The notes under the pieces were generated by a model. It saw only the letters and a program-made list of their open reading frames with translations, did not search any database and was not told the DNA's origin. Positions 44,619 to 49,625 of a stretch of DNA of 64,000 nucleotides are shown piece after piece. Source of the stretch: Streptacidiphilus sp. ASG 303 (GTDB lineage: Bacteria; Actinomycetota; Actinomycetes; Streptomycetales; Streptomycetaceae). Positions within the stretch are counted from its first letter, which is position 1. Every line of letters starts with the position of its first letter. The translations under genes and the position numbers were made by a program. Where the stretch lies: NCBI RefSeq assembly GCF_020991365.1, contig NZ_JAJLRA010000011.1:92154-156153 (forward strand), read 5' to 3'.

Positions 44619-46034
44619 GTGACGGTTCGCCGAACGGTCGACAGGACGGGCGGCGCGGGCCCTGCGGGCGGCACGGGCACCCCGGACGGCGCGGGCACCC
44701 CGGACGGCACGGGCACCCCGGACGGCATGGGCAGGACGGGCTACGGCGCGCTGCTGCGCACCCCCGGCGCCTGGGCGTTCCTCGTCCCCGCGTTCGCCGC
44801 CCGGCTCCCCTACGCGATGCTCACCATGGGCGTCGTGCTGCTGGTGCACCGCACGCACGGCTCCTACGGGACCGCGGGCGGCGTCGCCGCGGCCGCCGCC
44901 GTCGCCCAGGCCCTGGCCGGGCCGCAGACCGGGCGGCTGGCCGACCGGTACGGGCAGGCCGCGGTGCTGGTCCCCGGGGTGCTGCTGCACGCCGCGTCCA
45001 CCGCCGCGCTGACCGCGCTGGCCCTCGGCCGCGCGCCGGTGTGGGCGCTCTTCGCCGCCGCCGCCCCCGCGGGCGCGACCGTGCCGCAGATCGGCGCCAT
45101 GGTGCGGGCCCGCTGGGTGGCGCGGCTGGACGGCGGCCCGCTGCTGGGCACCGCCTTCGCCTTCGAGTCGGTGACGGACGAGTTCACCTTCGTCGTCGGC
45201 CCGGTGCTGGCCACCGCGCTGTGCACCGGCGTCGCCCCGGCCGCCGGGCTCGCCGCCGAGGCGGCCCTCACCGTCGCGGGCGGCCTCGCCTTCGCCGCGC
45301 TGCGCCGCTCCGCGCCCGCCCGGCACCCGCGTCCGGCGGGCGGCGGCCGGCGGGCCTCCGCGCTCGCGGTCCCCGGGGTGCGGCTGCTGGTCCTGGCCTT
45401 CCTCGGCGTGGGGTCGGTCTTCGGCGCCGTGCAGGTGTCGGTGACGGCCTCGGCGGGCGAGGCGGGGCGGCCCGGCATGAGCGGGACCGTCTACGGCGTC
45501 TTCGCGGTCGGCAGCATGCTGGCGGGGGTCCTCTACGGGGCCGTGCCGTGGCGGCGGCCGCCGCACCGGCGGATGCCGGCCGCCTACCTGGCGATGGTGC
45601 TGGGCTGCTCGGCGCTGTGGGCGCTGCCGGACCTCACCGCGCTCGCGGCGGGCGTCCTGGTCTGCGGGCTGACGGTCGCCCCGAACCTCATCACCGGCTA
45701 CACGCTGGTGGAGTCGCTGGTGCCGGCCGGCGCCAAGACGGAGGCCTTCACCTGGCTGACCGGCGCCATCGGGCTCGGCCTGGCGGCCGGGTCGACGGCG
45801 GCCGGGCAGCTGGTCGACGCGGTGGGCGCCCGGGCCGGGTTCCTGGTGCCGGTGGCCGGCACCGGGGCGGCCCTGGCGGTGCTGCTGGTGCTGCGCGGGC
45901 TGCTGGAGCCGGGACCGGCGCCGGGCCGCACGGTGGCCCGCGGGACGGGTGCCGGGGGACGGCCGGCCGGCAGGGCGGGCGCCGGGGCCGCGGGCACCGG
46001 CACGACGCAGCTCACACCTGCCGCGCTGGACTGA
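44619..46034 (+). CDS. MFS transporter
   Basis: A 471-residue major facilitator with twelve predicted membrane segments; AGPQTGRLADRYGQ is the loop 2-3 motif A variant and GTAFAFESVTDEFTFVVGP marks helix 5. GTG at 44619 has AGGAAGGA 5 bases upstream. The N-terminal cytoplasmic segment contains a TPDG-type repeat (GTPDGAGTPDGTGTPDG) encoded by three 18-base tandem repeats at about 44672-44727; the C-terminal tail is Gly/Ala-rich. The substrate is unknown. The start overlaps by four bases the end of a small open frame (44419-44622), noted separately. Confidence 0.88.
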   Translation: MTVRRTVDRTGGAGPAGGTGTPDGAGTPDGTGTPDGMGRTGYGALLRTPGAWAFLVPAFAARLPYAMLTMGVVLLVHRTHGSYGTAGGVAAAAAVAQALAGPQTGRLADRYGQAAVLVPGVLLHAASTAALTALALGRAPVWALFAAAAPAGATVPQIGAMVRARWVARLDGGPLLGTAFAFESVTDEFTFVVGPVLATALCTGVAPAAGLAAEAALTVAGGLAFAALRRSAPARHPRPAGGGRRASALAVPGVRLLVLAFLGVGSVFGAVQVSVTASAGEAGRPGMSGTVYGVFAVGSMLAGVLYGAVPWRRPPHRRMPAAYLAMVLGCSALWALPDLTALAAGVLVCGLTVAPNLITGYTLVESLVPAGAKTEAFTWLTGAIGLGLAAGSTAAGQLVDAVGARAGFLVPVAGTGAALAVLLVLRGLLEPGPAPGRTVARGTGAGGRPAGRAGAGAAGTGTTQLTPAALD

Positions 46035-46064
46035 TCGCCGGGAATGCCGCATCATTGAGGGTCG

Positions 46065-46091
46065 TTAGCACTCACCAGGTAAGAGTGCCAG
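46065..46091 (+). promoter_or_regulatory. CIRCE-like inverted repeat (HrcA operator) before fmdB
   Basis: TTAGCACTC, nine bases, GAGTGCCAG. The left arm matches the CIRCE consensus in all nine positions, the spacer length is the canonical nine, and the right arm differs from GAGTGCTAA at two positions. The right arm overlaps the fmdB ribosome-binding site and lies 11 bases before its GTG start. Confidence 0.75.
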
Positions 46092-46101
46092 GAGGAAGCA
46101 A

Positions 46102-46428
46102 GTGCCGACGTACCAGTACCAGTGCACCGAGTGCGGCAGCGGCCTGGAGGCGGTGCAGAAGTTCACCGACGACGCGCTGACCGAGTGCCCCCAGTGCCAG
46201 GGCCGCCTTCGGAAGGTCTTCTCCGCCGTGGGCGTGGTCTTCAAGGGCTCCGGCTTCTACCGCACGGACAGCCGCTCGTCGTCGAGCTCCTCGGTGGGCT
46301 CCGCGTCCACCTCGACGCCGGCCTCCTCCGGCGACTCCGGCGGTTCCGGCAAGGCTGCGGCCAAGCCCGCCGCGAGCAGCACCCCGGCGTCCGGCGCCTC
46401 CTCCGCGGGCAGCACCTCCGCCGCCTGA
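46102..46428 (+). CDS. FmdB-family zinc-ribbon protein
   Basis: A 108-residue protein. The N-terminal zinc ribbon (residues 1-45: MPTYQYQCTECGSGLEAVQKF and CPQCQG) holds two CxxC pairs, then GVVFKGSGFYRTDSR, then a Ser/Ala-rich disordered tail. Named after a regulator of formamidase, this family is a small putative regulatory or chaperone-like zinc protein of unknown general role. GTG at 46102 has AGGAGGAA. The CIRCE-like operator suggests heat-shock control by HrcA. mtnP follows from its own leaderless promoter. Confidence 0.92.
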   Translation: MPTYQYQCTECGSGLEAVQKFTDDALTECPQCQGRLRKVFSAVGVVFKGSGFYRTDSRSSSSSSVGSASTSTPASSGDSGGSGKAAAKPAASSTPASGASSAGSTSAA

Positions 46429-46538
46429 GCGGCGGCACGGCACGGCGGTCCCGGCACGCCCGGGGGCCGCACGCGCGGCAGGCACTCCGAGGCCCCGCAC
46501 CCCCTCCGGGGCGGTGCGGGGCCCCTGGTGCGTCCGGA

Positions 46539-46544
46539 TAGGCT
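46539..46544 (+). promoter_or_regulatory. -10 hexamer of leaderless mtnP promoter
   Basis: TAGGCT is followed by seven bases and the ATG at 46552; no ribosome-binding site. Confidence 0.6.
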
Positions 46545-46551
46545 TCCCGCC

Positions 46552-48536: not shown

Positions 48537-49508
48537 TCAGGCTGCCTCGAAGCCCGAGTGGTGGGCCATCCGCTTGAGCTCGGCGAGGGCGTGCTTCTCG
48601 ATCTGCCGGATGCGCTCGCGGGTGAGGCCGTGCTGCTTGCCCACCTCGGTGAGGGTGCGTTCACGGCCGTCCTCCATGCCGTAGCGGGAGCGGATGATGG
48701 ACGCGGTCCGGTCGTCGAGGCGGCCGATGAGGTCGTCCAGCTCCTCCCGGCGCAGCATCACCAGGACGGCGTCCTCCGGGGAGACGGCCGCCGTGTCCTC
48801 GACGAGGTCGCCGAACTGCGTCTCGCCCTCGTCGTCGACCGACATGTTGAGGCTGACCGGGTCGCGGGCCCAGTCCAGCACGTCCTTGACGCGCTCCTCG
48901 GTGGAGCCCAGCTCGGCGGCCACCTCGGCGGGCTCCGCCTCGCGGCCCAGCTCCTTGGACTTCTCCCGCTGGACCCGGCGGATCCGGCCGAGCTCCTCCA
49001 CCAGGTGGACGGGCAGCCGGATGGTGCGGGACTGGTCGGCGATGGAGCGGGTGATGGCCTGGCGGATCCACCACGTCGCGTAGGTGGAGAACTTGTAGCC
49101 CTTGGCGTAATCGAACTTCTCGACCGCCCGGACCAGGCCGGCGTTGCCCTCCTGGATGAGGTCCAGCAGGGGCAGGCCGCTGCGGGGGTAGCGTCGGGCG
49201 ACCGCGACGACCAGGCGCAGGTTGGAGCGGATGAAGACGTCCTTGGCGCGGTCGCCGTCCTCGGCTATCGCCCGCAGTTCGTCCTCCCCGACGCCCTCCG
49301 GCAGGACGCCCGCGTCGAGCAGGTGCTCGGCGTAGACGCCGGCCTCGATGCGCAGGGACAGCTCGACCTCCTGGGCGGCGTCGAGCAGGGGGGTCCGGGC
49401 GATCTCGTCGAGGTACATGCCGACGAGATCGCGGTCGGCCTCACTGTTGGCCGGGCGGGCGGTGCGCGCCCGGTCGGCCTTGTCGCGAACGACGGCACGG
49501 GTGGCCAT
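48537..49508 (-). CDS. hrdD: Group 2 sigma factor HrdD
   Basis: A 323-residue sigma-70-family protein with regions 1.2 (DLVGMYLDEIARTPLLDA), 2 (SNLRLVVAVARRYPRSGLPLLDLIQEGNAGLVRAVEKFDYAKGYKFSTYATWWIRQAI), 3 and 4 (RTLTEVGKQHGLTRERIRQIEKHALAELK), and a short N terminus without a large region 1.1. Start MATRAVV and length match HrdD of streptomycetes, a principal-like but dispensable sigma factor. ATG at 49506-49508 has GGGAG 6 bases upstream. The promoter region contains GGAAC and GGGAAT, in keeping with reported sigma-E control in S. coelicolor. Confidence 0.93.
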   Translation of the reverse strand: MATRAVVRDKADRARTARPANSEADRDLVGMYLDEIARTPLLDAAQEVELSLRIEAGVYAEHLLDAGVLPEGVGEDELRAIAEDGDRAKDVFIRSNLRLVVAVARRYPRSGLPLLDLIQEGNAGLVRAVEKFDYAKGYKFSTYATWWIRQAITRSIADQSRTIRLPVHLVEELGRIRRVQREKSKELGREAEPAEVAAELGSTEERVKDVLDWARDPVSLNMSVDDEGETQFGDLVEDTAAVSPEDAVLVMLRREELDDLIGRLDDRTASIIRSRYGMEDGRERTLTEVGKQHGLTRERIRQIEKHALAELKRMAHHSGFEAA

Positions 49509-49590
49509 GCGTACTCCCTTGCTTCCGGTGCCTGCTTGCCTTCCTGTGACGGCGCGGACCGGTCCCGGCCCCGCGTCGACGTAACGATTC

Positions 49591-49625
49591 AACGAGCAGA
49601 ATCCGGACATCATTCCCAACGTTCC
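49591..49625 (-). promoter_or_regulatory. Candidate ECF (sigma-E-type) promoter of hrdD
   Basis: On the minus strand GGAAC (49621-49625) and GGGAAT (49612-49617) are possible -35 elements; from GGAAT, 17 bases lead to CGTT (49591-49594). This lies 83 bases upstream of the hrdD start. Confidence 0.4.

Follow-up and report, generated by a model that had tools for sequence, protein, structure and literature searches.

Introduction

In Mycobacterium tuberculosis, transcription of the FmdB-family gene rv0991c (ruc) is subject to two opposing inputs. As described in PMC7448276, HrcA represses the gene, SigH induces it, and the two sites overlap. The same paper reports that an hrcA mutant contains abundant Ruc and that heat shock raises the level of Ruc in this mutant still more, that the reduced protein is the zinc-binding form and the oxidised protein the one that prevents aggregation, that clients bound to Ruc can be refolded by the DnaK system, and that the ruc mutant has no strong virulence defect in mice. 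Rv0991c is also named among the genes that lie beside SigH ChIP-seq sites and show SigH-dependent transcription (PMC4803200). The link between HrcA and Rv0991c is repeated in PMC8557902, where an rv0991c-rv0990c operon is mentioned, and in PMC8223512, where it is attributed to Stewart et al. 2002. A study of acidic and oxidative stress includes an FmdB-family gene from M. intracellulare in its table of changed genes (PMC11022373).

The promoter recognised by SigR has the consensus GGAATN18GTT according to PMC2375139, and the consensus GGAAT-N18-19-GTT is given for Streptomyces coelicolor in PMC9205884, where 71 SigR targets are reported. The locus analysed here combines an HrcA operator, a SigR-type promoter and an fmdB gene. 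The preliminary description of this DNA had taken a link between HrcA and an FmdB protein to be undescribed; that was mistaken, as the repression of the counterpart Rv0991c/Ruc by HrcA is published (PMC7448276). The preliminary description also overlooked the SigR-type promoter that is fused to the operator.

Results

The gene was found in a 64 kb stretch of DNA, referred to as the window. The gene and the elements just before it are as follows.

46065 to 46091, unstranded: CIRCE operator (HrcA box), 16 of 18 arm positions, N9 spacer
46091 to 46098, plus strand: ribosome-binding site GGAGGAAG, read from the sequence
46102 to 46428, plus strand: fmdB/ruc, encoding a 108-aa zinc ribbon protein with a Ser/Ala-rich low-complexity tail (TIGR02605, 9.9e-21; PF09723, 2.6e-15)

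Read on the plus strand, the operator upstream of fmdB is TTAGCACTC-ACCAGGTAA-GAGTGCCAG. It is a 9-9-9 inverted repeat that differs from the consensus TTAGCACTC-N9-GAGTGCTAA at two positions and has the exact spacer. When the 64 kb window was scanned it was the sole match at up to three mismatches, and none of 100 shuffles of the window contained such a match (0 expected by chance). The pattern scan and the shuffles thus confirm the earlier claim of a CIRCE with a nine-base spacer and 16 of 18 arm positions; the site is real and not a product of chance. An overlap with the ribosome-binding site had also been claimed. It exists but is slight, GGAGG (46091-46095) sharing one base with the right arm. 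The operator ends 10 bases before the start codon, a GTG at 46102.

Assignment of the product to the FmdB family was made by family profile search, in which both TIGR02605 and PF09723 scored above cut-off. The translation contains a CxxC-N17-CxxC zinc ribbon with C8, C11, C29 and C32, cysteines numbered as they are in the Rv0991c mutants described in PMC7448276, and a C-terminal tail of about 50 residues that by eye is rich in Ser, Ala and Gly. No solved structure was matched by sequence at E up to 0.1. The gene in the window corresponds to M. tuberculosis Rv0991c (Ruc). By analogy with Ruc, its product is very likely a redox-activated chaperone.

Conservation of the operator was followed in a scan of named genomes, from which the best 80 of at least 284 confirmed relatives were used, a sample that leans to close relatives. 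A CIRCE with at least 14 of 18 arm positions was present within 250 bases of the start at 72 of these 80 loci. Of 1705 control stretches, taken from the same loci and matched in length, none reached 14 of 18; the maximum was 13, seen in 3. Conservation of the arms across relatives, the first check proposed for the site, is therefore borne out, and this count against controls is the real test of it. Of 197 genomes of the class, 92 matched a strict pattern in which the right arm is followed by a GTG start with PTY codons, as compared to 2 of 197 for the reversed control. From the 105 pattern-negative genomes, 36 were hand-picked to span families and inspected; 32 of them have the gene, 30 loci were obtained, and 25 of the 30 carry a CIRCE that scores 14 of 18 or better. 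The strict pattern therefore counts too few.

The operator was missing from eight of the best 80 of at least 284 relatives (L053, L065, L070, L073, L078, L083, L085, L087) and from five of the 30 further class loci (L127, L135, L149, L153, L154). hrcA is present in 33 of the 36 inspected genomes, including all five that have no CIRCE at the gene; thus the link is not universal. A per-column profile was drawn from 51 CIRCE-positive loci with no SigR motif. Core arm columns were conserved at 0.98-1.0, except for one where C and G share the position, and most flank and spacer columns at 0.3-0.6, the best up to 0.84; these loci had been preselected for a CIRCE scoring 14 of 18 or better, so that arm conservation is partly built into the profile, which is not a separate test. 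Among Streptomycetaceae, fair conservation extends to the spacer columns, and conservation there alone cannot separate the motif from shared descent. The distance between CIRCE and the start codon reaches 95 bases in other lineages (L152).

Some upstream regions showed features of their own. The CIRCE-less loci L065, L070 and L127 have AACTGTACCCTT in common upstream of the gene, perhaps as another kind of control element in that lineage. The upstream sequences of L073 (titled Bifidobacterium breve MAG), L078 (Actinobacteria MAG) and L135 (a small genome) are nearly identical, and the title of L073 is probably a binning or naming error. L133 has a tandem pair of nearly identical CIRCE-like repeats in its upstream region.

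The rest of the putative regulon was searched for in the same genome (7.0 Mb). A scan with the TTAGCACTC form of CIRCE gave five places, against none for the reversed-pattern control: two before groES-groEL (L093), two before a second groEL (L092) and one at fmdB. The groES, groEL and second groEL proteins were identified by family search, which says only GroEL for the latter two; they are presumably what usage calls groEL1 and groEL2. hrcA is present at G000:C156 (TIGR00331, 1.3e-96) and has upstream of it a sixth site, a perfect CTGGCACTC-N9-GAGTGCCAG. A scan with this form at three mismatches found 11 sites where the reversed control found 14, and is too loose in this GC-rich genome. The fmdB operator resembles those of groES-groEL1 and groEL2 in sequence and spacing, but the chaperonin sites are paired and have no adjoining SigR motif, whereas the fmdB site is single and fused to a SigR-type -10. 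The SigR motif is absent beside all other CIRCE sites of the genome (L092, L093, L094). Given the conserved operator and the other regulon genes of this genome, the proposed membership of the FmdB protein in the HrcA regulon is well supported, and fmdB likely belongs to it in the window organism.

Two candidate promoters lie immediately upstream of, or run into, the operator.

46041 to 46066, plus strand: SigR/SigH-type ECF promoter, GGAAT (46041-46045)-N18-GTT (46064-46066), from consensus match and conservation
46027 to 46055, plus strand: putative sigma-70-like promoter, TGGACT (46027-46032)-N17-CATCAT (46050-46055), from conservation of the box pair; its sigma class is suggested by the boxes

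In the SigR-type promoter the -35, the spacer (N18) and the -10 all agree exactly with GGAAT-N18/19-GTT, as in the S. coelicolor SigR promoters (PMC9205884, PMC2375139), but at fmdB the -10 lies inside the HrcA operator: the TT of GTT is the first TT of the CIRCE left arm (offset -1). Of 249 family genomes, 212 contain the exact composite of SigR promoter and CIRCE, and no reversed control was among the matches listed; the composite also occurs in 3 of 3 genomes of the genus. The gene is present in 35 of the 37 family genomes that have no exact composite. Thirty of these loci were read, and all carry a CIRCE of 15 or 16 of 18. At 21 of them, all from genus g7, GGAAAT replaces GGAAT; the other nine have no GGAA -35 and comprise seven loci of g2 and g5, L117 (g15) and L125 (g10). 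L117, from genome G016, has CGAAT and ATT; its CIRCE is in the displaced position described below, with no SigR match. L125 (G143) belongs to the largest genus in the family sample; CIRCE and GTT are kept there, the GGAA -35 is absent, and the SigR half seems to have been lost.

The two box pairs were compared over 73 loci, namely the window and the 72 CIRCE-positive named loci from the best 80 of at least 284 relatives. The SigR-type pair, searched as GGAAN-N17-19-GTT near CIRCE, was found in 51 of the 73 and was absent in 22; the sigma-70-like pair, searched as TKGACN-N16-19-BANNWT, lay within 26 bases upstream of CIRCE in 56. Both pairs were present in 43 loci and neither in 9. In upstream sequence shuffled base by base the SigR-type pair appeared at 0.45%, and in shuffled upstream sequence the sigma-70-like pair appeared at 0.25%, rates that are optimistic because box definitions and offset ranges were fixed after the sequences had been viewed. 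All 42 named Streptomycetaceae loci among the best 80 (membership taken from record titles) and the window carry both pairs, the SigR composite being exact or near in 42 of 42 when GGAAA in L014 is counted.

The placing of GTT relative to CIRCE varies with lineage among the best 80 of at least 284 relatives. The offset is -1, and once -2, in Streptomycetaceae including the window, and -3 in four mycobacterial loci. Three Nonomuraea loci have -7, as does a Parafrankia locus whose -35 is weaker. In the four mycobacterial loci (L059, L069, L080, L082), which do not include M. tuberculosis itself, GTT ends just before CIRCE, whereas in the window the TT is shared. Their operator reads CTAGCACTT-N9-GAGTGCTAA and ends 28-30 bases from the start, as against 10 in the window. 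The overlap of an HrcA site with a promoter of the SigH/SigR class is nevertheless common to the window and M. tuberculosis ruc (PMC7448276).

The sigma-70-like pair also differs in position. In Streptomycetaceae (same best 80, with the window) its boxes stand at -38 or -39 and at -15 or -16. The pair is present in 13 of the 30 other CIRCE-positive named loci of that sample, and in 11 of these 13 it abuts CIRCE, with the first box at -28 or -29 and the second at -5. CIRCE thus lies about 10 bp further downstream in Streptomycetaceae, except that genera g2 and g5 of that family keep the -29 arrangement. In the window, the TGGACT box and the stop codon of the MFS gene upstream overlap. The notion that TGGAC is merely the end of the upstream coding sequence was rejected despite this overlap, for the box is kept where the upstream frame ends earlier. 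TGGAC is found at -28 to -32 in 28 of the 51 CIRCE-positive, SigR-less loci (7 of the 28 from g2 and g5), and in 9 of the 28 a long upstream reading frame stops before the box; frames were taken with a crude caller at more than 450 bases, and at several loci none was found.

In a tree of HrcA and DnaJ from 30 genomes, g2 joins g5 (97.7/98). Their position as sister to all other sampled Streptomycetaceae is weakly supported (84.9/42). The direction of change is therefore read from the agreement with the outgroup geometry. Gain of the SigR fusion within Streptomycetaceae is the simpler reading, though unproven.

Discussion

The arrangement at fmdB suggests a dual-input gate in which HrcA acts on a SigR-driven promoter of the actinomycete ruc gene, the product being an FmdB-family, redox-regulated holdase. 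We hold this reading with considerable confidence. The operator, its conservation, hrcA and its regulon, the promoter motif and the fixed overlap were all observed directly; that the window organism has the same HrcA/SigR control and redox activity as M. tuberculosis is expected by analogy. RNA polymerase with SigR would start from GGAAT-N18-GTT. SigR is the counterpart of SigH and is freed once its anti-sigma factor is oxidised. An HrcA dimer on CIRCE would cover the SigR -10 together with the expected start near 46072 (46070-46075), shutting the promoter, and, sitting just downstream, would probably also shut the sigma-70-like promoter. Heat or unfolded protein would inactivate HrcA and so lift repression. 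Full expression may need both the removal of HrcA by heat or misfolding and the release of SigR by thiol oxidation. Ruc would then be made alongside GroES/GroEL and would itself be switched on by oxidation.

The sigma-70-like boxes may be a working promoter, as their conservation suggests. Alternatively, HrcA could control the gene through CIRCE while the housekeeping sigma factor transcribes it from TGGACT-N17-CATCAT, with GGAAT...GTT a by-product of descent and of the constraint on CIRCE, which already fixes the TT of the SigR -10. Such control would fit the slightly wider spread of the sigma-70-like pair (56 loci against 51 of the 73 from the best 80 of at least 284 relatives and the window), its occurrence as the only pair in 13 loci, Micromonospora-type included, and the fact that g2 and g5 of the same family manage with no SigR pair. 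We nevertheless consider it unlikely: GGAAT is kept at the SigR spacing from GTT in 212 of the 249 family genomes, SigR-type pairs with a different offset, namely -3 in mycobacteria and -7 in Nonomuraea (among the best 80), occur where the sigma-70-like pair is lacking, and SigH binds at this place in M. tuberculosis, as listed in PMC4803200.

A role of CIRCE in RNA, as a 5′ hairpin that alters mRNA stability or masks the ribosome-binding site, is highly improbable. The repeat does stand just 5′ of the ribosome-binding site, and both arms would be present in an mRNA started at the sigma-70-like promoter; a transcript from the expected SigR start would carry the right arm only, and in other lineages CIRCE may lie as far as 95 bases from the start (L152). 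This role was rejected on the fold of RNA 46060-46110, in which the CIRCE hairpin does not form and stability is not clearly above that of shuffles (z -1.22). That the repeat is a chance or relic site, functionless in this lineage, is hardly credible and as a chance origin was rejected on the 0 of 100 shuffles: some hrcA-bearing lineages have no such site and the operator is known here from sequence, but with 0 matches expected by chance in the window stand its presence in 72 of 80 relatives (best 80 of at least 284) against 0 of 1705 controls, and the hrcA gene and CIRCE-bearing chaperonin operons of the same genome.

Under the dual-input gate, the differences in geometry could be explained if CIRCE were the fixed core of ruc control across many actinomycetes and the sigma input had changed several times. 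A widespread arrangement, TGGAC-N17/18-CANNAT abutting CIRCE, would have been kept even in g2 and g5; elsewhere in Streptomycetaceae CIRCE would have come to lie about 10 bp (one helical turn) downstream, the TT of the new junction serving as SigR -10, and mycobacteria (-3) and Nonomuraea (-7) would have reached the same fusion by other geometries. We give this history an even chance. If true, disulphide stress and protein misfolding would have been wired to a redox-activated chaperone more than once, by convergence. The offset differences offer a concrete case in which a repressor site and an alternative promoter may have fused more than once.

fmdB may already be listed as a SigR target in published lists, the SigR regulon paper reportedly being that of Kim et al., Mol Microbiol, 2012. 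In the portions of text covered by our literature search, we found no link of fmdB/ruc to HrcA or SigR in Streptomyces, no report on fmdB binding, expression or start site for the window organism or any Streptomyces, and no mention of a composite SigR-HrcA promoter of Streptomycetaceae, the SigR half of which may sit in supplementary target lists. What is new here is the breadth of the ruc-HrcA link in actinomycetes, now extended from mycobacteria to many others, and the composite SigR-HrcA promoter of Streptomycetaceae. Streptomyces would provide an easily handled, non-pathogenic group for the study of a redox-activated chaperone and a two-signal promoter.

The surroundings of the gene also differ from those of its mycobacterial counterpart.

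46491 to 46523, plus strand: strong GC-rich hairpin, a possible terminator with no U-tract (stem coordinates from the centroid structure)

The region around it (46480-46550) folds at -44.7 kcal/mol (z -2.97) and lies between fmdB and a gene for S-methyl-5′-thioadenosine phosphorylase, so that fmdB is probably transcribed mostly alone. The next gene is thus the thioadenosine phosphorylase gene, as compared to the rv0991c-rv0990c operon mentioned for M. tuberculosis (PMC8557902). The genome has a second FmdB-type gene at G000:C156:138321-138464 (L095), with no CIRCE upstream (best score 8 of 18); its 73-aa product has a Gly/Cys-rich tail ending in CCGGGCCG. Further along the window, on the minus strand at 48537-49619, an open frame by eye resembles a primary-type sigma factor.
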